The translations under genes were made by a program, and so were the position numbers. The notes below the pieces were generated by a model. The model was not told the DNA's origin and did no database searches. It saw only the letters and a list, made by a program, of their open reading frames with translations. From the NCBI GenBank assembly GCA_003166955.1, contig PMUI01000111.1, positions 19,975-73,214 of the forward strand: a DNA stretch of 53,240 nt, given 5' to 3'. This stretch comes from Acidobacterium sp. Lineage in GTDB: Bacteria > Acidobacteriota > Terriglobia > Terriglobales > Acidobacteriaceae. This document shows, piece after piece, positions 16,367 through 53,240 of the stretch; positions within the stretch are counted from its first letter, which is position 1, and every line of letters starts with the position of its first letter.

Positions 16367-16441
16367 TCACTCGGACTACACGCTGTCCGCTGTCCGCTGT
16401 CCGCTGTCCGCTGTCCGCTGTCCGCTGTCCGCTGTCCGCTG
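16367..16441. repeat. Perfect heptamer tandem array
   Basis: Bases 16381-16440 are eight full copies of CGCTGTC plus CGCT, without a single mismatch. The 14 bases before it (TCACTCG and GACTACA) are in the same 7-base phase but diverged. The array lies between the folP stop and the stop of the small gene at 16443 and touches the latter. It is the least diverged member of the heptamer-period tracts seen elsewhere in the window. Confidence 0.95.
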
Positions 16442-44707: not shown

Positions 44708-45754
44708 TTAGGTAACCCTTGCCGGCGCGCCGCGCGTCACCGCCCACATCAGCAGCCGCGCCAGCATGTTCACCACAATCGTCACCAGAAACAGCGCCAG
44801 CCCAATCTCAATCAGCGCGCTGCGATAGGTGTCGTCGGCCGCTTCCGCAAATTCGTTCGCGATCACGCTGGCCATGGTCGCCGCCGGCGCCAGGAGCGAC
44901 TTCGAAATCGTGGGGCTGCTCCCGATCACCATGGCCACCGCCATCGTCTCGCCCAGCGCGCGGCCCAGTCCCAGAATGATCGACCCCACGATGCCGATGC
45001 GCGCGTTGCGCAGCACCCCCATCCGGATCATCTCCCACCGCGTCGCCCCCAGCGCCAGCACCGCCTCGCGCTGCGTGTGCGGCACCGCCGTCATCACTTC
45101 GCGCGTCAGCGACGAGATGATGGGCAGGATCATGATGGCCAGAATCACCCCGGCCGCGAACATTCCGATCCCGAAATCCGGAGCGACGAAGAGACCCGTC
45201 CAGCCCAGCGTCTTAATCAGCAGCGGATTCACATACAACCGCAGCAGCGGCACCAACACGAAGATCGCCCACAGTCCATACACCACGCTGGGAATCGCCG
45301 CCAGCAACTCGGTCAGGAACGACAGGATTCCGCGCAGCGCCTTGGGGCACATCTCGGTGAGGAATACCGCAACTCCCACCGCCAGCGGCACCGCGATCAC
45401 CAGCGCCACCAGCGACGAAACCACCGTGCCATAGATGAACGGCAGTGCGCCGAAGTCCGCGTTGACGGGATCCCACGCGCTGCCGAAGAAGAACTTCATC
45501 CCGAACTTCGTCAGGGTGAGTTTTGAGCTCGACACCAGCTCGGTGGCAATCAGCGCGACGATGCCGAAGATGCTCAGCGCGCACAACACCATCAGCCAGC
45601 GGAAGGTCGAGTCGGCCAGCGACGAACTTCCCCGGCTCTGCAGGAATTTTCTGATCTGGGAGGCCGGTGCCGGCACAGCCACCGGCGTGAGCCCGCCGGC
45701 GGGTTCGGCGGCGGCAGCCCTGGGCGTGCGGGGTTCCTGGATCCGCAAAGTCAC
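44708..45754 (-). CDS. pstC: Phosphate ABC transporter permease PstC
   Basis: Protein of 348 residues beginning at GTG 45754. A proline/alanine-rich cytoplasmic leader of about 50 residues precedes six hydrophobic segments; the coupling region PHTQREAVLALGATRWEMIRMGVLRNARIGIVGSIILGLGRALGETMAVAMVIG is the PstC signature. The conserved FGAW/FGSAWDPVNADFGALPFIYGTVVSS loop after the first helix also fits. Upstream a hairpin terminator (45874-45901) separates it from pstS, so its expression relies on read-through. Assignment is very confident. Confidence 0.96.
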   Translation of the reverse strand: MTLRIQEPRTPRAAAAEPAGGLTPVAVPAPASQIRKFLQSRGSSSLADSTFRWLMVLCALSIFGIVALIATELVSSSKLTLTKFGMKFFFGSAWDPVNADFGALPFIYGTVVSSLVALVIAVPLAVGVAVFLTEMCPKALRGILSFLTELLAAIPSVVYGLWAIFVLVPLLRLYVNPLLIKTLGWTGLFVAPDFGIGMFAAGVILAIMILPIISSLTREVMTAVPHTQREAVLALGATRWEMIRMGVLRNARIGIVGSIILGLGRALGETMAVAMVIGSSPTISKSLLAPAATMASVIANEFAEAADDTYRSALIEIGLALFLVTIVVNMLARLLMWAVTRGAPARVT

Positions 45755-45873
45755 AACTCGTTTACCCTAACCGGCCTTTTTGAATGCCACGTTAATCTCT
45801 ATGAAAAACAAGGAAATAAAGTAACTCAGCGGGGTCCGCTGTGCCGATTCGATGCGTACCCTCACTCCGATGC

Positions 45874-45901
45874 AAAAGGGCGCATCCGCCGATGCGCCCT
45901 T
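45874..45901 (-). terminator. Intra-operon terminator between pstS and pstC
   Basis: Stem AAGGGCGCATC (45876-45886) and GATGCGCCCTT (45891-45901), eleven base pairs with a four-base loop. Read on the minus strand it is followed by TTTT. It lies 62 bases after the pstS stop and 120 bases before pstC, the usual place for a partial terminator that lets the binding protein be made in excess over the membrane subunits. Confidence 0.75.
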
Positions 45902-45904
45902 CAA

Positions 45905-45960
45905 TTCGCCGTCCGCTCGTCTTTAGCTCGCAGTTCGCTCGTCGTTCGCTCGCCTTCAGC
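45905..45960. repeat. Heptamer-period tract between pstS and its terminator
   Basis: Eight words in one phase (examples TCCGCTC, GTTCGCT, CGCTCGC). It fills nearly all the space between the pstS stop (45963) and the terminator hairpin, touching neither. Confidence 0.6.
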
Positions 45961-45962
45961 GG

Positions 45963-46970
45963 TTACGGCAGGGTCGAAACCGTCGACTTCACCTTCGCAG
46001 CCACGGACGCGGGCAGCGGCGCATAATCCAGCGCCGAAACTTCGCCCTCGCCATGGTCCAGCATCCAGGTCAGAAAGTCCTTGATCACCTTCCCCTTGGT
46101 CGCATCCGTCGGATGCGTCGGAATCAGCAGGTAGGTGAAGCTCGATATCGGATAGGAATCCTTTCCAGGAGCGTTCGTGATCGACACGCGGTAGTCCGCG
46201 GGCATCGACTTCAGCGAGCCCGCAGCATCCGTCACACCCTCGATGCTCGCCTTCAGCCAGGTACCGGCGGCATTCCGCATGTAACCGTACGAAATCTTGT
46301 TCTGCAGCGCGTAGATCAGCTCCACGTACCCGATCGCCCCTGGCATCTGCCGCACCAAGCCGGCCACGCCTTCGTTGCCTTTGCCGCCGATTCCCTTCGG
46401 CCATGCCACCGCCGAATTCGCGCCCACGCTTGTTTTCCAGTCCGGGCTCACCTTGGACAGATAATCCGTGAAAATGAAGGTCGTTCCGCTGCCGTCCGAA
46501 CGATGCACCACGTAGATCTCCTGGTTCGGCAGCTTCACCCCGGGGTTATCCTTCGCGATGCGCGCATCGCTCCAGTTGCTGATCTTGCCCAGATAAATAT
46601 CTGCCAGGACGTCGGGCGCGAACTTCAGATCCGTCCCTGCGCCCGGGACGTTGTACACCGGGACCACCGCGCCCAGCACGGTCGGGATGTGGATCAGCTT
46701 CACCTTCGACTGCGACAGCATCGTATCGGTCATCGGCATATCGCTGGCGCCGAAATCCACCGTCCCCTCTGTCACCTGGCGGATGCCTCCGCCCGACCCG
46801 ATGGACTGGTAGTTGATCTGAACCCCCGGATGCTGCGTGGCGTACTCGGAAAACCACTTTGAATAGATCGGATACGGAAACGTCGCACCTGCCGCGTTCA
46901 GCTTTTGTGCCCCGGCGGAACCGGCCGCGCACACCATCAGCGCAGCCGCAAGAATCATGCTTTTCTTCAC
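45963..46970 (-). CDS. pstS: Phosphate-binding periplasmic protein PstS
   Basis: Protein of 335 residues with a signal peptide (MKKSMILAAALMVCAAGSAGAQ), binding phosphate in the periplasm and delivering it to PstCA. Phosphate-contact motifs are present: NAAGATFPYPIYSKWF, the Gly-rich IGSGGGIRQV, DFGASDMPM and HRSDGSGTTFIFTDYL. It is the first gene of the pst operon. A direct repeat resembling a phosphate-response site lies 45-60 bases before the start (47015-47030). The following terminator would make it the most abundant transcript. Assignment is very confident. Confidence 0.97.
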   Translation of the reverse strand: MKKSMILAAALMVCAAGSAGAQKLNAAGATFPYPIYSKWFSEYATQHPGVQINYQSIGSGGGIRQVTEGTVDFGASDMPMTDTMLSQSKVKLIHIPTVLGAVVPVYNVPGAGTDLKFAPDVLADIYLGKISNWSDARIAKDNPGVKLPNQEIYVVHRSDGSGTTFIFTDYLSKVSPDWKTSVGANSAVAWPKGIGGKGNEGVAGLVRQMPGAIGYVELIYALQNKISYGYMRNAAGTWLKASIEGVTDAAGSLKSMPADYRVSITNAPGKDSYPISSFTYLLIPTHPTDATKGKVIKDFLTWMLDHGEGEVSALDYAPLPASVAAKVKSTVSTLP

Positions 46971-47014
46971 GGATTTGCCCCCCTAAGAGACTGAAACGAT
47001 TTTTCGTCCCGATT

Positions 47015-47030
47015 GTTAACGTCCGTTTAC
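47015..47030 (-). promoter_or_regulatory. Candidate phosphate-response (PhoB/PhoP-type) site
   Basis: GTTAAC (47015-47020) and GTTTAC (47025-47030) form a direct repeat with 10-base period (read on the plus strand) in an AT-rich patch 45-60 bases upstream of pstS. Direct repeats of similar short words are known as PhoB/PhoP sites in other phyla, but the acidobacterial consensus is not known to me and the spacing is one base short of the usual 11. Confidence 0.3.
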
Positions 47031-47111
47031 ATAGCCGTGAAAAACCCAACAAAGGCAGCGGGTTCGCGGACTGTGCACACGGAGAGCCGGTACTGGCTCA
47101 GGACGCCGTTT

Positions 47112-47213
47112 TCAGCTTCCCTGCAACACCAGGTACTGCTCCAGTTTCCCGTCCGGCATCGTGCAGGTGGTGATCGTCAGCGGCTTGCCGCCGTTCGGAA
47201 CATCCCTCCTCAA
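47112..47213 (-). pseudogene. Possible remnant of a small gene
   Basis: The minus strand reads 30 residues (DVPNGGKPLTITTCTMPDG, then KLEQYLVLQGS) to a TGA at 47112-47114, preceded by a TGA upstream so that no ATG start fits; a TTG at 47213 gives at most 33 residues. The protein-like composition suggests the C-terminal end of a decayed gene, between pstS and the peptidase. I do not recognise the family. Confidence 0.3.
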
Positions 47214-47286
47214 AAGAAAACCTCAAGAGTAGCACCCGCGCCCGGGCTGCCGGTGCTATGCTGTTCCCCCTCAGGACCCTGGCCCC

Positions 47287-48303
47287 ATGCGCGCACACCT
47301 AATTCTGCTCTCTGCCTTCCTCCTTGCCGCCACCGCTCAGCCCCAGCAAGCGCCGTCTGCCGATCCAGCCGCCGCCTCTGGAGCGCCTGCACGATCCCTC
47401 GAGCAGCCGACGCCCCGGCCTAAATCGAAAACCGTCCCCATCGACGCGCCCGCGCTCAGCTACTACGCCGTGCCCACCGGCGTCCTCGATCATGAGGTCC
47501 ACACCATCCCCGCCTCCGACGCCGATCGCCTCGCCCGCCTCAAAACCGCTTTCACCCAGGTCGATTGCACCGGCGACCGCATGCGCATCCAGGACATGAA
47601 GGACGGCCAAAATCTCATCTGCACCTGGCCCGGCAAGGACCCCTCCACTATCGTGGTCGTCGCCCATTACCCCCACAAAGGCAAAGGCGAAGGTGCGGTC
47701 GACGACTGGAGCGGAGCCGCGCTTCTTCCGTATCTCTACCTCGCCGTCCAGGCCGCGCCCCGCACCAACACTTACGTTTTCCTCGAATGCACCGGGGAAA
47801 AAGGTAATGAAGAATATCTGAAGTCCCTCAGTAAACAACAAAAGAAGGACATCCGCGCCGTCGTCGACCTCATGGGCCTCGGTGTCTCCCCCGTGCCGCG
47901 TTTCTACACGCCATCGGATACCGCCGACCCGAAGGCCGACGCCTTCCACCTGCAGCTGGAATTCCTCTACTCCACCTTCTCCGACAGCCGCCTGCAGCTG
48001 CCCCAGCCGCTCAACCCGCAGCGCTGGATCACCACCGACGACACTGAGGCATTCCGCTTCTCCCAAACCCCAGCCATCATCATCCACTCCATTCCGCAGA
48101 CCTCCGTCGGCCTCCCCGGTTCCGCCCAGGACACGGCCGCAGCCGTCGACACCGCCAACTACTACTGGAACTACCGCACCATCGCCATCTACCTCGCCGC
48201 CCTCGATGGCGTCGCCGAGAAGCTCGCCACTAACGACCCCCTCTGGGGCGCCGGCGGATCAGGCTACCGCCTCAACCTCAACGACCTTCCCTGGGTTCAT
48301 TGA
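47287..48303 (+). CDS. M28-like zinc metallopeptidase, secreted
   Basis: Protein of 338 residues with a signal peptide (MRAHLILLSAFLLAATAQPQ). The fold resembles M28 aminopeptidases: H127 in VVVAHYPHKGKGEGAVDDWSGAALL (His and the bridging Asp at 139/140), ECTGEKGNEEY with candidate ligand and catalytic Glu (171, 175, 176), VVDLMGLG (D194) and IIHSIPQ (H267). The motifs deviate from the classical HYDS and GEExG patterns (HYPH, GEKGNEE), so activity may differ. It is probably exported to the periplasm. No close operon partner; the asparaginase gene follows after 103 bases. Family is moderately confident. Confidence 0.75.
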   Translation: MRAHLILLSAFLLAATAQPQQAPSADPAAASGAPARSLEQPTPRPKSKTVPIDAPALSYYAVPTGVLDHEVHTIPASDADRLARLKTAFTQVDCTGDRMRIQDMKDGQNLICTWPGKDPSTIVVVAHYPHKGKGEGAVDDWSGAALLPYLYLAVQAAPRTNTYVFLECTGEKGNEEYLKSLSKQQKKDIRAVVDLMGLGVSPVPRFYTPSDTADPKADAFHLQLEFLYSTFSDSRLQLPQPLNPQRWITTDDTEAFRFSQTPAIIIHSIPQTSVGLPGSAQDTAAAVDTANYYWNYRTIAIYLAALDGVAEKLATNDPLWGAGGSGYRLNLNDLPWVH

Positions 48304-48406
48304 CCCGCACGCTGCTCCGAGCGAACGCCGGCCGGGCCTTTCCTGCCCCGGCGTGCCCCGATTCGCCCTCTCGGCGGCAAGGCAACGGTTTGTTACCATT
48401 CCCCGC

Positions 48407-49780
48407 ATGACAACAAGGCGCGATTTTCTCGCGATCGGTGCGCTTACTACCGCCGGACTCACGATTCCCGATTTGTTTTCGCAGACCGCCGACTCTGTTA
48501 AGCAGCTACAGCCTCCGTCGAAACCGGTCATCGTGACGCGCGTCACCGGCGACAAGACCATCCAGGAGGCGTATCAGATGCTCCTCGAGGGCGCGGACAC
48601 GCTCGACGCGGTGCACCGCGTTTGCATCGGGCGCGAGAACGATCCGAAGGATCACTCTGTCGGCCTAGGGGGCCTGCCCAATGAGGAAGGCGTGGTCGAG
48701 CTGGACTCCTGCTGCATGCACGGGCCCACGCGCTCCGCCGGTTCGGTGGGCGGGGTGCGCGACATCAAGAACGTTTGCCTGGTCGCGCGCAAAGTGTACG
48801 AGCACACCGGCCACGTGATGCTGGTGGCGGAAGGGGCGCAGCGCTTCGCCGTCGACCTGGGCTTCCCCAAGGAAGACCTGCTGACCGAGGATGCCCGGAA
48901 AATCTGGATGCTCTGGAAGGAAAACAACTCGCAGCAGGATTGGTGGGGTCCGTCGATGACCCAGCCAGGCTGGAAAGATCCATACGCCGACAAGCCGGCG
49001 CCGAAGCCGACGATGGATCTCCACGGGCTCTCGTCGCTGCGTGACGACCTGCACGACGATTCATCTCCCATGTCCCAACCCGAGGGACCCGTTCGACGCG
49101 CCGCCTCCGGCGACTTGCTCAGGGCAGGCTATGGGGCACCCGCGCTGCGGCCTGGCACTGTGCCGCGGCATCCGACTCCGGAATGGGCGGAGACGATTCG
49201 GGTTCGGGCGCAGAAGCTCGTTTCCATGGCGGCCGATCTTGGGATCGCGCCGGAAGATCGGCTCTACGCCGCCGAGCAGGTGCTGTGGCCGACCACGGGA
49301 ACGATTCACGTCTCAGTGGTCAACCCCAAGGGCGAGATCTCCGGCGCCACCACCACTTCCGGGCTGGCGTGGAAGCTGCCGGGCCGGCTCGGCGATTCGC
49401 CGATTCTCGGCGCGGGCAGCTACACCGATCAGGACGTCGGCTCGGCGGGCGCGACGGGGTCGGGCGAAGAGAACATCAAGGTCGCCGGCGCGCACACCAT
49501 CGTCGAACTGATGCGCCAGGGCCGCACGCCGCAGGAAGCGGGCATCGAAACGCTGCGGCGGATTGTGCGCAACTACAACGGCGACATGACGAAGATTCGC
49601 CTCCTCGACATGGAGTACTACATCGTGCGCAAAGACGGCACGTACGCGGGCTGCTCGCTGTGGAGCACCGGTCCGACGGGGCGTCCGCGGGTGTTTGCCG
49701 TGCACGATGACAAAGGCTATCGCGTGGAAAACTGCGCGGCGCTGCTGGAAGGCGGATCGCTGGTGTGGCCTCCGTTCTGA
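48407..49780 (+). CDS. Tat-exported glycosylasparaginase (Ntn hydrolase)
   Basis: Protein of 457 residues with a twin-arginine signal (TTRRDFLAIGALTTAGLTIP). The Ntn-hydrolase core is that of N4-(beta-N-acetylglucosaminyl)-L-asparaginases: DAVHRVCIGRENDP, VGLGGLPNEEGVVELDSCCMHG, then the self-cleavage/nucleophile region GT299IHVSVVNPKGEISGATTTSGLAWKLPGRLGDSPILGAG and GATGSGEENIK. Thr299 is the likely nucleophile, exposed by autoproteolysis. Residues about 209-256 form an unusual low-complexity insert (DDLHDDSSPMSQPEG onward) before the cleavage site, containing a 12-base word (ATGGGGCACCCG) shared with a palindrome at 52052. GC skew begins to invert within this gene. Family is confident. Confidence 0.9.
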   Translation: MTTRRDFLAIGALTTAGLTIPDLFSQTADSVKQLQPPSKPVIVTRVTGDKTIQEAYQMLLEGADTLDAVHRVCIGRENDPKDHSVGLGGLPNEEGVVELDSCCMHGPTRSAGSVGGVRDIKNVCLVARKVYEHTGHVMLVAEGAQRFAVDLGFPKEDLLTEDARKIWMLWKENNSQQDWWGPSMTQPGWKDPYADKPAPKPTMDLHGLSSLRDDLHDDSSPMSQPEGPVRRAASGDLLRAGYGAPALRPGTVPRHPTPEWAETIRVRAQKLVSMAADLGIAPEDRLYAAEQVLWPTTGTIHVSVVNPKGEISGATTTSGLAWKLPGRLGDSPILGAGSYTDQDVGSAGATGSGEENIKVAGAHTIVELMRQGRTPQEAGIETLRRIVRNYNGDMTKIRLLDMEYYIVRKDGTYAGCSLWSTGPTGRPRVFAVHDDKGYRVENCAALLEGGSLVWPPF

Positions 49781-49786
49781 AAGCCA

Positions 49787-49814
49787 GCGTTCGGCGCTCG
49801 GCGTTCAGCGCTCG
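49787..49814. repeat. Heptamer-period tract after the asparaginase gene
   Basis: Four heptamers in phase: GCGTTCG, then GCGCTCG twice with GCGTTCA between them. It begins seven bases after the stop codon. Confidence 0.7.
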
Positions 49815-49888
49815 GACATATCAAATCTTGTGGATCAAACGCTCTCGTGGTGAATCCATTCTTCGGACTTGACTGCGCGGAGAACAGC

Positions 49889-50446
49889 ATGGCTCGCAAC
49901 ATCACTCCCGTCCTGGACGATTCCGTTGCACTGCTGGCGCGGACGCCCGCGACGCTGGACGCGTTGCTGCGCGGCCTGCCTGACGTGTGGACGCTGCGCA
50001 ACGAAGGGAGCGGCACCTGGACGGCGCGCGATGTGGTCGCGCACCTGACCGAACTGGAGCGGACCGACTGGATGCCGCGGGTGCGCCGCCTGCTCACGTT
50101 CGGCGAGACGCGGCCCTTCGATCGGGTGGATCGGGGGGCCTTCAGGAGGAACGCAAGGGGCAAGTCGCTTTCGCAGCTGCTGGGCGAATTCGCGCGGCGG
50201 CGCAAGAAAAATCTCGACGATCTGCGGCGGCTCGAGCTGAAGCGCGCCGATCTGGGGCGGCGCGGGCGTCATCCTGCGCTCGGCATGGTCACGCTCTCGG
50301 AGCTGGTCGCAGCCTGGGCCGCGCACGACCTGACGCATCTGCACCAGATCGCACGGATCCTGGCGCACCAGCATCGCGAGGCGGTCGGCCCGTGGGACAA
50401 GTTCCTGGGCGTGATGCAATGCACAGGGCACAGCGCGTCGGGGTGA
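49889..50446 (+). CDS. DinB-like metal-dependent protein
   Basis: Protein of 185 residues from ATG 49889, with GGAG seven bases upstream; a GTG start 14 codons earlier is possible. It has the four-helix DinB/YfiT-like pattern, with candidate metal ligands H52 (VVAHLTELERTDW), H146 and H150 (WAAHDLTHLHQIARIL). The family includes thiol transferases using bacillithiol or mycothiol and many proteins of unknown role. An Arg/Lys-rich loop (FRRNARGKSLSQLLGEFARRRKKNLDDLRR) lies in the middle. No operon partner is apparent. Family is reasonably confident, function open. Confidence 0.85.
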   Translation: MARNITPVLDDSVALLARTPATLDALLRGLPDVWTLRNEGSGTWTARDVVAHLTELERTDWMPRVRRLLTFGETRPFDRVDRGAFRRNARGKSLSQLLGEFARRRKKNLDDLRRLELKRADLGRRGRHPALGMVTLSELVAAWAAHDLTHLHQIARILAHQHREAVGPWDKFLGVMQCTGHSASG

Positions 50447-50527
50447 GGGCAGCGCCCGGCTCGCGGCGATTCGTCGTATCCCGTTCGTCGTGTCCAGCTC
50501 GTCCGGGCCCGATTCGACCTGGCCCGA

Positions 50528-50629
50528 TCAGTCCCAGCTCGAATCATCCCAGCGGGGATCGCGGAAGCGGCGAACCAACATACGCAGACCAAAGACGGCA
50601 AGGATTCCTGCAACTATTTTCCAGATCAT
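50528..50629 (-). CDS. 33-residue putative membrane peptide
   Basis: Minus-strand ATG at 50627-50629 encodes one hydrophobic helix (MIWKIVAGILAVFGLRMLV) followed by a charged tail (RRFRDPRWDDSSWD) to TGA at 50528-50530. The amphipathic end and clean helix resemble small membrane proteins often missed in annotation. The ribosome site is weak. It lies alone in the 623-base gap after the DinB-like gene. Confidence 0.4.
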   Translation of the reverse strand: MIWKIVAGILAVFGLRMLVRRFRDPRWDDSSWD

Positions 50630-50822
50630 TTGTTTTCCAGGGCAAAGGCAATGGAACTGCCAGCGAACCACCAATGGGGCTGAGAGTAGCGCCAAGCGCG
50701 TGGATGACCAATCGCAGGAACGTGGAGGTGTGGTGTCTAACGGTACTAACCTTTTGGTAATCAGTTACTGCGGGTTCGATAGCGATCTGGTTAGCCCATG
50801 ACAGCGGATAGAGTGACCAGGG

Positions 50823-50990
50823 TTCAGCGTTCAGCGTTCAGAAAGGCGTGTGCGCCGGGAGCTCGAAAGACGTAGCTGGGAGCCGGGAGCTGGCAGCCAG
50901 TAGGTGCTAGCTCTTAGCTGACTCCTTGTCCTGTCTCCTGATCACTCTTCACAGATCACTGGCGTCTATTCCCTATTCCCTGGTGTTCGA
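50823..50990. repeat. Long heptamer-period tract
   Basis: About 23 heptamers in nearly constant phase, with at least one single-base slip. Recognisable word families follow one another: TTCAGCG-type words, GGAGCCG/GGAGCTG-type words (around 50879-50900), TTAGCTG-type words, then TCACTGG- and TCCCTAT-type words near the end. It occupies most of the gap before the gene at 51070. The stretch 50447-50822 upstream holds only the small ORF at 50528 and nothing else I can name. Confidence 0.8.
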
Positions 50991-51069
50991 TCACCGCACT
51001 CATCGTGCTGCAGAGCACAGCGGCGGCGGCGGAATCCGAGTAAAGTGCAGAGGTGGAGAGTGCTGAGGT

Positions 51070-51603
51070 ATGGACAGCAACGGTCCAGCGAGCAAGCCGC
51101 GTGTGCCCGGAAGAGGAGCGCCTGGCGCGCGGGGGCGGAAAGCGGATCCCGCGATCTATTCGCAGATGCGGCGGCATGCGCTGGAGCTGCAGTTGCCGCA
51201 GGTGGCGCGCGACGGCGTGCACGTGGTGCTGATGGACTGGCACGTGGACAAGGGCACGGTGACGGTGGCGGCTGCGGCGGATGGGGCTGCGAGCGTGTAT
51301 CTGAGCAGCGGAGGCGGGTTCATCGGGGGGAGCGAGAAGGTGCCGGCCATTCGGGAGGCGGCGCTGCACGCGGTGGCTCTGGCGACGGGGCTGCGGTTCC
51401 ACTTTGTGCCCACTGAGATGACGCCGCTGCCGTCGCTGGGGGATGTGACGTTCTATCTGACGACGGGGACGGACGTGCGACGGGCGGTGGCGGCGGAGTC
51501 GAAGCTGCGGGCGGGGGCCGATCCGCTGGCCGGCCTGGGCGGAGCGATGCAGCGGATCGTTACGGAGTATAGAGTGCACTTTAAGGCAGCGGTCAGCAGT
51601 TAG
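51070..51603 (+). CDS. Conserved-looking cytoplasmic hypothetical protein
   Basis: Protein of 177 residues from ATG 51070. A basic, glycine/proline-rich leader (about 28 residues) is followed by a compact domain: DPAIYSQMRRHALELQLPQV, VHVVLMDWHVDKGTVTVAAAADGAASVYLSSGGGFIGGSEKVPAIREAALHAVALATGLRFHFVPTE and VTFYLTTGTDVRRAVAAE. The pattern of alternating strands and helices with a glycine-rich turn looks well conserved, but no family name comes to mind. The last codons and the stop lie inside the heptamer tract at 51589-51658. Its coding strand is unusually G-rich compared with genes left of 48 kb. Confidence 0.8.
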   Translation: MDSNGPASKPRVPGRGAPGARGRKADPAIYSQMRRHALELQLPQVARDGVHVVLMDWHVDKGTVTVAAAADGAASVYLSSGGGFIGGSEKVPAIREAALHAVALATGLRFHFVPTEMTPLPSLGDVTFYLTTGTDVRRAVAAESKLRAGADPLAGLGGAMQRIVTEYRVHFKAAVSS

Positions 51604-51658
51604 CTGGGAGCAGTTAGCTGGGAGCCGGGAGCTGGGGGCCAGTAGCCAGTAGCAGACC
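51589..51658. repeat. Heptamer-period tract with fixed GC start
   Basis: Ten consecutive 7-base words, every one beginning with GC, occupy 51589-51658. Examples are GCAGTTA (twice), GCTGGGA (twice), GCCGGGA and GCCAGTA (twice). The stop codon of the hypothetical gene at 51601-51603 lies within it. This is the clearest degenerate tract in the window. Confidence 0.9.
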
Positions 51659-51767
51659 GATGCCAGACCGCCGACGAGAGCGGCTCGTTTCGCGCCAGTC
51701 CGCAATTTCAAAGCCGAGAAGCGGATCAGCCGGATTCGTAACGGTCGTGGTGCCTTATTTTGGCGAC

Positions 51768-51908
51768 CTAGTGCGGCGCGGCGTCGAAGCGGTACTTCGT
51801 GAAGAAATTCCAGGAGCCTTCGTTGACCTGGTCGAGGACGTTCCAGCAGGCGCCGGAAGAGCTGGAAATGCTTTTGAGTTTGATCGTGGAAGCCGGCTTT
51901 GGCGAAGG
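51768..51908 (-). pseudogene. Possible gene remnant
   Basis: In one minus-strand frame the sequence reads KPASTIKLKSISSSSGACW, then NVLDQVNEGSWNFFTKYRFDAAPH, to a stop at 51768-51770, with an in-frame stop about 45 codons upstream and no suitable start. The composition is protein-like, so this may be the end of an inactivated gene. Family is not recognised. Confidence 0.3.
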
Positions 51909-51943
51909 ATATTAGAGCTGGGGCGGGGGTAGGTCCACATGAC

Positions 51944-52013
51944 GAGGGTACAGGGGTGCAGGGTGCAGAACAGCGGATAGCGTTCAGGGGAGAGGCGGGA
52001 GACAAGAGACACG
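51944..52013. repeat. Heptamer-period tract upstream of the methyltransferase
   Basis: Ten words in one phase, moving through related families (GAGGGTA, GCAGGGT, AGCGTTC, AGACAAG). It runs to within three bases of the palindrome at 52016. Confidence 0.75.
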
Positions 52014-52015
52014 AT

Positions 52016-52056
52016 CCCATCCTGCTGCGCGGAAAAGCGCCGCGCACCAGGATGGG
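52016..52056. repeat. REP-like palindrome
   Basis: A long hairpin: CCCATCCTG (52016-52024) pairs with CAGGATGGG (52048-52056), and inside GCGCGG (52027-52032) pairs with CCGCGC (52040-52045) around the loop AAAAGCG. No T tract follows, so it is not an ordinary terminator. The adjoining word ATGGGGCACCCG (52052-52063) recurs at 49131-49142 in the asparaginase insert. Confidence 0.75.
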
Positions 52057-52112
52057 GCACCCGGGTTCGTGCAGAGCCTTTACAATCCAGGAGCGAGGGT
52101 TGAGAGCTGGGG

Positions 52113-52766
52113 ATGGTGAATCTTTTCCGGAGGAAGAAGGAAGATGAGGAGCGGGGGCGGCCGACGCTGCTGACGGGGCCGAGGATTCCGCGTCACTCGA
52201 GCGGGTGGGAGGCGCTGCTGAAGCATCTGCGGGCGGAGAACGGGCTGCGGGTGCTGGACGTTGGGCCGACGTCGCCGCAGAACATCAATTTTCTGACGGA
52301 AATGGGACACAGCGTGTACATGGCGGATGTGGTGAACGAGTCGCTGCGAGAGGAGTGGAAGCTGCCGCCGGAGGAGGAGGGGGAGCCGGCGCGGTTCGAC
52401 GTGGAGGGGTTCTTCGAGCAGAATTTGAATTTTCACGGGCGGCAGTTCGATGTGCTGCTGCTGTGGGCGACGCTGGATTACATTCCCCGGGGGCTGATTG
52501 AGCCGCTGGTGGCGCGGCTGAAGGACGCGACTCTGCGAGACGGGAAGGTGCTGGCGATTTTTCATTCGAAGCCGACGGGGCCGTATACGGAGTATTGCCG
52601 GTATCACCTGACGGGGACGTCGGAGATCGAGATGCAGGAGACGGAGCCGTATCCGGTGCTGCGGGTGCACACGAACCGGCAGATCGAGAAGCTTTTCACG
52701 GGGTGGTCGGGGAGCAAGTTTTTTCTGGCTAAGGATAATTTGTATGAGGTGATTGTGACGCGATAG
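52113..52766 (+). CDS. SAM-dependent methyltransferase-like protein
   Basis: Protein of 217 residues with a class I methyltransferase-like Rossmann fold. Residues 1-25 are a basic leader (MVNLFRRKKEDEERGRP). Motif I appears as LRVLDVGPTSPQNINFLTEMGHSVYMADVV (residues about 45-75), a variant of the usual DxGxGxG with TSP replacing the Gly-rich loop. Later segments (DVLLLWATLDYIPRGLIEPLVARL, GKVLAIFHS) match motifs IV and VI spacing. Substrate is unknown. The coding strand is strongly G-rich. The stop lies at the start of the heptamer tract at 52766. Family is moderately confident. Confidence 0.8.
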   Translation: MVNLFRRKKEDEERGRPTLLTGPRIPRHSSGWEALLKHLRAENGLRVLDVGPTSPQNINFLTEMGHSVYMADVVNESLREEWKLPPEEEGEPARFDVEGFFEQNLNFHGRQFDVLLLWATLDYIPRGLIEPLVARLKDATLRDGKVLAIFHSKPTGPYTEYCRYHLTGTSEIEMQETEPYPVLRVHTNRQIEKLFTGWSGSKFFLAKDNLYEVIVTR

Positions 52767-52842
52767 GGGATAGCGGACAGGGTACAGGGTGCAGGGTACA
52801 GAAAGGCGGCAGCGGTTAGCGGGCAGCGGATAGCGTTCAGGA
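52766..52842. repeat. Heptamer-period tract after the methyltransferase gene
   Basis: Eleven words in a single phase, starting at the last base of the stop codon: families GGGTACA (twice), GGCAGCG (twice), GTTAGCG and GATAGCG. Further, more diverged words continue toward 52870. Confidence 0.85.
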
Positions 52843-52902
52843 AAGAACGCGGGAGACAGGAGAGACCAGGGCGGAGACAGGGTAGATCGGAGTGATGGCA
52901 GA

Positions 52903-52935
52903 AGCGGCGCTGGGGCGCGCGCTTTTTTTGTTTTT
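52903..52935 (+). terminator. Probable terminator after the methyltransferase gene
   Basis: AGCGGCGC (52903-52910) pairs imperfectly, with one bulge, with GCGCGCGCT (52915-52923) around TGGG, followed by a long T run broken by a G. It lies between the methyltransferase stop and the end of the convergent membrane gene. Confidence 0.6.
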
Positions 52936-52967
52936 CAAAATTGAGAGATGGGTCGGCCGGAATTTGT

Positions 52968-53240
52968 TCAGGTTGGCTCGATGGGCGCGGGTTTGCGGCG
53001 GCGGGTGGCGAAGAGGGCTACGGCGATCGTGGCAAGGATGGGGGTGGCCAGGGCGGCGTAGGCAATGTAGTGCTGCTTTTTGGTGAGGAAGATGGTGTGG
53101 CGCGTGTCGGTGATGCGGTAGACGTGGCCGGAGGGCGGGTCGGGCTGGTGTGGGGCGGTTCGCTGGTAATGCAGCAGGAGCGCGATGCTGCCGCCGAAGA
53201 GGCAGAGGACGAGAACGACGAGGGCGGCGATGAGGCCGTC
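52968..53240 (-). CDS. Membrane protein, C-terminal 90 residues (5' end outside window)
   Basis: The minus strand is open from the window edge to a TGA at 52968-52970. It encodes a hydrophobic helix (GLIAALVVLVLCLFGGSIALLLH), a polar loop with PDPPSGHVYRITDTRHTIFLTKKQHYIAYA, a second helix (ALATPILATIAVALFATRR) and a short basic tail. It is a two-helix tail of a larger membrane protein; no family is recognised. Although on the minus strand, the plus strand here is G-rich, so its coding strand is C-rich, in line with the strand-bias change. Confidence 0.7.
   Translation of the reverse strand, partial: DGLIAALVVLVLCLFGGSIALLLHYQRTAPHQPDPPSGHVYRITDTRHTIFLTKKQHYIAYAALATPILATIAVALFATRRRKPAPIEPT

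Follow-up and report, generated by a model that had tools for sequence, protein, structure and literature searches.

A heptamer tract at the end of an open reading frame

The window, i.e. the whole stretch of 53,240 nucleotides analyzed here, comes from a draft genome of Acidobacterium sp. (G000, 5.41 Mb), where it spans bases 19975-73214 of contig 116. It contains several short arrays of seven-base words, two ORFs that end in such arrays and one dispersed palindrome:

16381-16441, minus strand: perfect array, AGCGGAC in 8.7 copies, in an oppositely skewed domain and in reversed orientation
50812-50922, plus strand: two AG arrays (AGGGTTC AGCGTTC AGCGTTC; AGCCGGG AGCTGGC AGCCAGT AGGTGCT AGCTCTT)
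50940-50981, minus strand: weak opposite-strand AG array (AGGGAAT AGGGAAT AGACGCC AGTGATC)
51070-51603, plus strand: 177-aa ORF, no Pfam match; it ends within the tract with the stop codon TAG (51601-51603), whose AG anchors the third AG word
51588-51658, plus strand: the tract in the AG register (AGCGGTC AGCAGTT AGCTGGG AGCAGTT AGCTGGG AGCCGGG AGCTGGG GGCCAGT AGCCAGT AGCAGAC)
51946-51993, plus strand: weak AG array, GGGTGCAGGGTGCAG..AGCGGATAGCGTTCAG, ahead of the dispersed palindrome
52014-52060, plus strand: dispersed palindrome with 15 copies in 754 kb, a separate element in the same niche as the arrays
52113-52766, plus strand: 217-aa ORF, no Pfam match; its stop codon lies within the first word of the array at 52762
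52762-52801, plus strand: sister array (GATAGGG GATAGCG GACAGGG TACAGGG ...), whose first word contains the TAG stop of the 217-aa ORF
52808-52846, plus strand: further AG words (AGCGGTT AGCGGGC AGCGGAT AGCGTTC)

From 51589 on, the tract reads GCGGTCA GCAGTTA GCTGGGA GCAGTTA GCTGGGA GCCGGGA GCTGGGG GCCAGTA GCCAGTA GCAGACC, and the eleventh word is GATGCCA. Direct reading of the letters confirmed that ten successive heptads at 51589-51658 begin with GC and that GCTGGGA, GCAGTTA and GCCAGTA occur twice each, as the initial annotation had stated. This run of 10 is the longest GC-heptad run in the window; the longest run in 100 dinucleotide-preserving shuffles was 4 (40 shuffles), 5 (52), 6 (6) or 8 (2). 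When any dinucleotide was allowed, the longest run in the window was 10 words at period 7 and 5-6 words at periods 5, 6, 8, 9 and 10. At period 7, a run of CT words from 16376, which belongs to the perfect array at 16381-16441, is also 10 words long. The heptads are head-to-tail 7-nt units beyond chance, as in long simple sequence repeats or STRR sequences. Tandem Repeats Finder (TRF) reported a period of 14 at 51595-51636, with the unit in 3.0 copies, and a period of 7 at 51638-51653.

The same annotation let the words begin at GC. GC as their anchor was not supported, as AG is common to the other arrays and GC is the AGC subset of their words. Because AG and not GC is shared, the register is better set one base earlier, as AG[C/G]NNNN from 51588. 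The tract (51588-51658) is non-coding except for the final codons of the 177-aa ORF, for which our gene caller preferred a start at 51166. An array at the stop codon on the 5' side of its AG strand (hereafter the stop-codon rule) is seen twice in the window, with the 177-aa ORF and the tract and with the 217-aa ORF and the array at 52762. The predicted RNA fold of the tract has z = -2.0, with 7 of 200 shuffles equally or more stable. Rfam gave no match up to E = 1 in 45000-53240, the palindrome at 52014-52060 included.

A genome-wide family of period-7 arrays

To place the tract in its genome, we used a non-random sample of 754 kb of G000 that includes the window (stretch L025 lies outside that set) and 454 kb of a congener, G008. 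Another congener, G006, is 100% identical over 8000 bases to PKVY01000026.1, a record of a draft genome named Acidobacterium sp. palsa_291, which places the genus in the Acidobacteriota. The sample of G000 contains 59 lag-7 arrays, 54 of which fit the one degenerate word AG[C/G]NNNN. The expected excess of lag-7 autocorrelation in intergenic DNA over the neighbouring lags was found relative to lag 8 (z = 9.5 against -1.0) but not relative to lag 6 (z = 12.4), when plain autocorrelation was computed over 407 pieces (130 kb) of predicted intergenic DNA and compared with 60 shuffles. Lag 14 reached z = 6.4. Lags 6, 9, 12, 15, 18 and 21 were all elevated, which probably reflects unannotated coding sequence.

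A test on local segments is clearer for period 7 than plain autocorrelation. At a score of at least 16 in 358 kb, it returned 24 segments at lag 7, 11 at lag 14, five at lag 6, two at lag 8 and none at lags 4, 5, 10 and 13, with none at lag 7 in one shuffle. The multiples of three gave six (lag 12), 10 (lag 15) and seven (lag 18) segments, and lag 21, a multiple of both, gave 22. AGS sites occurred 49 times at period 7, compared with once after shuffling; for periods 5, 6, 8 and 9 the numbers were 1, 5, 2 and 9 against 0, 4, 1 and 4. Together with the 59 arrays, the local segments bear out a period-7 signal throughout the sampled genome. That skewed, G-rich intergenic DNA only appears periodic, by chance or composition, is a negligible possibility. 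The skew of G000 is indeed strong, but the signal is absent from shuffles, the lag spectra refute such an origin, intergenic skew is small (0.00-0.26 in size) and arrays are abundant in genomes without skew.

At E up to 0.01, a profile built from 25 tracts had 63 hits in G000, with 150 of 2467 candidates scored. Under stricter filters, the 12 genomes of the genus had counts from 1 to 89, and 29 of 297 sampled genomes of the phylum had a profile match at E up to 0.001. A word-agnostic lag-7 scan (score of at least 14) found one array in G051 (the same number as in its shuffle), two in G004, seven in G038, 15 in G059, 16 in G008 and none in the samples of G003, G016, G026 and G028.

Words drift while AG is retained

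Circular word alignment of the first 29 tracts gave the consensus A (0.76), G (0.95), C (0.53) or G (0.35), with looser remaining positions. In arrays already chosen for their AG fit, 222 of the 266 words of G000 and 299 of the 351 of G008 begin with AG. There are 119 distinct words among the 266 of G000, and they have mainly AG in common. The two AG columns of G000 are nearly as similar between arrays (0.80 and 0.94) as within arrays (0.82 and 0.96), whereas the other five columns have identities of 0.68-0.81 within and 0.30-0.45 between arrays. G008 behaves in the same way, except for an identity of 0.64 between arrays in the third column.

Along an array, word identity falls from 0.80 at lag 7 to 0.75, 0.72, 0.69 and 0.66 at lags 14, 21, 28 and 35. 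Some arrays consist of near-identical units (16381-16441), and the overall lag-7 identity is about 0.80. The drift of words at a constant period, described earlier for the tract, is borne out. The arrays also look as if they had grown by copying of adjacent words, in line with the decay of identity with lag and with the 3.0 copies of the 14-base unit in the tract. The decay of identity and the contrast within and between arrays are as expected from local duplication and drift from which AG is largely exempt. Phase shifts are present in several arrays. The simplest guess is that AG is retained through a sequence preference of the slipping or repairing machinery.

The anchor looks lineage-specific, AG[C/G] in this genus and C[A/G]GTTG in G038. 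AG as a universal anchor was rejected: conserved-AG arrays numbered five of nine in G059 (5.2 after column permutation) and one of six in G038 (2.1), and cyanobacterial arrays of other words gave 41 of 77 against 35.0. We also rejected tandem stop codons as the purpose of the repeats. Of 234 AG occurrences in G000, 98 are preceded by C, 67 by T, 48 by A and 21 by G, so that TAG is a minority. As a separate observation, G038 (L103-L104) has a second degenerate heptamer vocabulary (AGTTGCC, GGTTGTC and others) with skew in the same orientation in all six intergenic arrays.

Arrays are polar with respect to stop codons

Genes were predicted with our own coding-potential caller (588 in G000 and 364 in G008), and their starts are approximate. 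For the analysis of polarity, 45 of 56 arrays were kept in G000 and 39 of 48 in G008; those dropped had a poor AG-word fit, lay more than half inside predicted genes or had a gene missing on one side. For 48 of these 84 intergenic arrays, the AG strand is bounded on its 5' side by a stop codon, which in 42 of the 48 is at most 23 nt away. Stop codons that bound the 3' side are this close in only 7 of 41 cases (Fisher p = 1.6e-11). Within skewed gaps that have stops on both sides, 12 of 14 arrays lie at most 23 nt from the AG-5' stop and two of 14 at most 20 nt from the other. Of the two neighbouring ORFs, the one 5' of the array, as read along the AG strand, is nearer for 37 of 45 arrays in G000 and 28 of 39 in G008. 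Array density per 10 kb is 5.6-6.5 with a stop on the AG-5' side and 3.6-4.0 without.

The remaining 36 of the 84 arrays have a gene start as AG-5' boundary. Their adjacency is weak (10 of 36 at most 20 nt away), which counts against the reading favored below, and the 5'-side gene is nearer in 12 of 18 and 9 of 18 arrays. No preference was seen where the AG strand is antisense to both neighbours (at most 20 nt away in 5 of 16 cases on the 5' side and 3 of 16 on the 3' side).

One explanation invokes G-quadruplex elements, in which the four G-runs of an array fold and regulate or stabilize, an idea already raised for Xanthomonas and Nostoc. In words like AGGGAAC and AGGGTAC, GGG recurs every 7 nt, the tract at 51588-51658 has four G-runs (spacing 11, 4 and 4 nt), and excerpts of one report describe the same polarity for GGGAATC (PMC4692102). 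Among our 48 arrays with an AG-5' stop, 25 contain at least two GGG, 13 contain none and 35 have fewer than four G-runs. Quadruplexes are weakened as the cause of the polarity by the arrays that keep the stop-codon rule with fewer than four G-runs (31 of 35 on the 5' side against 6 of 33 on the 3' side) or without GGG (11 of 13 against 3 of 14), and we consider this explanation improbable. Over all boundary types, the 5'-side gene is nearer for 7 of 12 GGG-free arrays in G000 and 10 of 13 in G008, neither of which is significant alone.

Four acidobacterial genomes of other families, in which array orientation was set by G minus C, gave a pooled stop adjacency of 30 of 39 on the 5' side against 9 of 42 on the 3' side. 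The individual values were 13 of 16 against 3 of 24 (G086), 10 of 14 against 5 of 13 (G085), 2 of 2 against 0 of 0 (G038) and 5 of 7 against 1 of 5 (G059). The 5'-side ORF was nearer for 37 of 49 (G086), 16 of 27 (G085), 5 of 6 (G038) and 9 of 13 (G059) arrays. We also assessed polarity at named loci, using the 80 listed of 115 stretches and long ORFs as genes. At cyanobacterial loci (pattern AGSGRAY) the 5'-side ORF is nearer in 41 of 51 cases, and in 31 of 32 within 50 bp. At the non-cyanobacterial ones it is nearer for only 10 of 17 arrays, which also counts against the favored reading.

The retained AG and the polarity are real. Directional tails outside the arrays were set aside, since the lag-7 signal there is too weak to use: the match in four successive 28-nt bins is 0.325, 0.304, 0.306 and 0.267 on the 3' side and 0.306, 0.270, 0.258 and 0.259 on the 5' side.

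Most arrays have AG on the G-rich strand

The G versus C skew at fourfold sites of G000 is very strong and independent of gene direction, and occurs in domains of changing sign. In 42 of 45 arrays of G000 and 35 of 39 of G008 (77 of 84), the AG strand coincides with the one that is G-rich in the local domain. Around the gene for ribosomal protein L2, 27 of 28 co-directional predicted genes have positive own-strand skew, and the G-rich strand was thus taken as the leading strand, with skew as a proxy that we infer. Per-gene values range from about -0.95 to +0.98 (window 46000-51500; contigs C39 and C97 of G000), and within the window the sign reverses, with about -0.6 at 47 kb and about +0.7 at 51 kb. 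The 754 kb contain three or more such reversals, which exceeds what a single origin and a single terminus would produce; inversions or breaks in the draft assembly are thus possible.

Skew was rejected as the cause of the arrays because G059, G085 and G086 have arrays without skew; G004, with strong skew and few arrays, also counts against it. Primase was another rejected candidate for the orientation, with AG as primer start and CTG or CTA, which we take to be primase template trinucleotides, as template. Because the AG strand is G-rich and probably leading, CTG is on the wrong strand for lagging-strand priming.

Some arrays form facing complementary pairs. The G-rich arm comes first in 16 pairs against none in G086 and in four against none in G085, both without skew, and the ratio is 2:2 in G059. 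Several gaps in G086 (L309-L318) are largely filled by two facing heptamer arrays capable of forming a hairpin.

Turnover of arrays and a dispersed palindrome

At orthologous stop codons, arrays are mostly absent. The 177-aa gene has no array after its stop in three of three congeners. For the 217-aa gene, nine of nine lack an array scoring at least 11 in the 500 nt around the stop, and for a 325-aa gene, array-adjacent in L027, 11 of 11 lack one scoring at least 12. For a 374-aa gene beside arrays in L017, two of 10 congener flanks have an array, with other words; a 50% identical relative from G006 was left out of this set, and the flank of G011 ends at a contig end. The arrays are therefore unlikely to serve particular genes, although this rests on four genes.

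These results bear on the possibility that the arrays act as control elements at the RNA or DNA level. Every 7 nt, the C-rich strand presents a pyrimidine-rich step, which would suit Rho factor; an array after a stop could end antisense transcription entering the gene, and G-first inverted pairs would serve as two-way terminators. The polarity at stop codons, which does not depend on quadruplex potential, is consistent with such a role. So are the G-first pairs of G086 (16:0) and G085 (4:0), as well as several arrays that lie, by eye, between a stop codon and a hairpin (folded for L027 only). We nevertheless regard control elements as unlikely. Besides the mostly array-free orthologous stops, many words (AGCCGGT, AGCTGGA) leave the C strand not G-poor, arrays also occur in gaps without an AG-5' stop, and the inverted pairs of G059 show no bias. 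A terminator scan of 50400-53240 (three sites, 1.7 expected) found nothing directly after the tract.

The palindrome at 52014-52060 belongs to a dispersed element of 60-70 nt whose hairpin (also at L027:2812-2877) has a predicted energy of -37 kcal/mol (z = -4.4). Six of its 15 copies in 754 kb have a same-orientation array at most 300 nt away on the 5' side. This association would fit a mobile or dispersed element (REP- or MITE-like) that inserts after stops and has an array as one of its ends. Flanks in G000 resemble the flank of another array in only 9 of 51 cases on the 3' side and 2 of 51 on the 5' side (11 of 102 in total), and in G008 this holds for none of 43 arrays. With most arrays lacking a common flank, they are not simply part of the palindrome element, and insertion of this kind is very unlikely. 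Nine of the 15 copies lie within 20 kb of contig 116, all nine on one strand, and 14 of 15 are on the locally G-rich strand (the exception is C126:54565). Another dispersed stretch of about 70 bases, at L138:7930-8000 in G006, has many relatives in G006, G005, G002 and G000 among the matches listed; its reverse strand contains CTTGACAAGTTCTCCACATTTGGGG.

Relation to known heptamer repeats

STRR sequences of filamentous cyanobacteria were reportedly described by Mazel et al. in 1990. The initial annotation named filamentous cyanobacteria as a source of heptamer repeats, which is too narrow, as two papers describe intergenic heptamer arrays in Xanthomonas and Nostoc, with polarity (PMC4692102), and in Beggiatoaceae, cyanobacteria and some Bacteroidetes (PMC4679880). 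Its view that a degenerate, multi-word type lacks a firm description is likewise to be set beside the heptamer mixtures mentioned for Microcystis (PMC4679880).

Period and position place the tract among the polar intergenic heptamer repeats known in Xanthomonas and Nostoc. According to excerpts of Rehm et al. 2015 (PMC4692102), the GGGAATC and GGGGA(C/T)T repeats are polar, intergenic and quadruplex-capable, with a polarity left unexplained in 2015. They share with our arrays a period of 7, a mostly intergenic location, a sense orientation after stops and closeness to the ORF lying 5' of the G-rich strand, in whichever direction that ORF is read. Convergent inverted pairs, 70 in Xcc and 75 in Xac, also occur here in G086 and G085. 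As described in the same excerpts, each genome has one word type, whereas we found 119 distinct words among 266; the repeats lie mostly between the same genes in two species, whereas here the orthologous stops of four genes mostly lack arrays. Two further reported traits are not shared by our family. Every unit there has a G-run and is quadruplex-capable, while our stop-codon rule persists without enough G-runs; and Xanthomonas is described as having no leading or lagging preference, while the AG strand here is the G-rich strand, inferred to be leading, in 77 of 84 arrays.

The TAACTGA repeats of marine Beggiatoaceae (MacGregor 2015, excerpts of PMC4679880) are likewise phylogenetically scattered intergenic direct repeats of heptamers. 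In the Guaymas strain they are a fixed word mostly just 5' of start codons, with related heptamers rare, in contrast to the many related words after stops seen here. Heptanucleotides were the commonest category of the long simple sequence repeats of Mrazek et al. 2007, and slippage tied to a 7-nt polymerase contact has been proposed for these, as both papers discuss; neither an AG anchor nor a strand lock, both present here, is described for STRR or long simple sequence repeats in the excerpts (PMC4679880, PMC4692102).

Among the open-licence literature matches listed, none described a many-word AG heptamer type, or any heptamer type in Acidobacteria. REP and BIME palindromes are located in 3' flanks. 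The arrays share this location, and form hairpins in G086, G085 and G059, but have little conserved sequence outside the heptads, and the arms are themselves arrays. They also lack the conserved dispersed sequence moving as a unit that marks REP/RAYT-type elements. The acidobacterial arrays are a variant of already known polar heptamer repeats, from which they differ in the many AG words, the strand lock and the polarity without enough G-runs.

Origin of the arrays

The reading that we favor, with a probability of about 0.6, assigns the tract to a genome-wide family of short heptanucleotide arrays in intergenic DNA, of the long-simple-sequence-repeat (STRR) kind, which are fast-turning slippage products and not gene-specific regulators. 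An origin by slippage is likely. Slippage or tandem duplication would add 7 or 14 nt at a time and point mutation would make the words drift; the arrays may be mutational products tolerated in 3' flanks that do not regulate the adjacent gene. With low confidence, we propose that growth proceeds along the direction of AG-strand synthesis with the 5' end pinned by coding sequence. Past the stop codon, RNA would be free of ribosomes, and G-rich RNA may stay paired to its template as an R-loop, which would leave the AG strand single and prone to slip; outward growth pinned at the coding end could be explained in this way. Plain de novo slippage predicts neither the common AG anchor nor the polarity, and this counts against the favored reading.

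A more speculative reading, which we hold to be doubtful, is that AG is read or written once per heptad by a sequence-specific, strand-polar process, and that arrays across phyla record one polar mechanism and not random slippage. The candidate agent would be a polymerase, a repair complex or a factor bound to the transcript. It would lengthen arrays on one strand, away from gene ends, and its anchor would differ between lineages.

Whichever process is at work, the acidobacterial arrays separate variables, as they combine stop-codon polarity without enough G-runs, a strand lock in skewed genomes and the retention of one dinucleotide amid drift at most other positions. This separation would make the origin of seven-base repeats directly testable.

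Arrays of AGGGAAC, AGGGAAT, AGCGAAT and AGGGGAT recur in cyanobacteria, Clostridia, Mesorhizobium, Thiobacillus, Helicobacteraceae and a Thermoplasmata draft genome (stretches L132-L211). The search pattern itself selected those words, and their recurrence across taxa suggests convergence.
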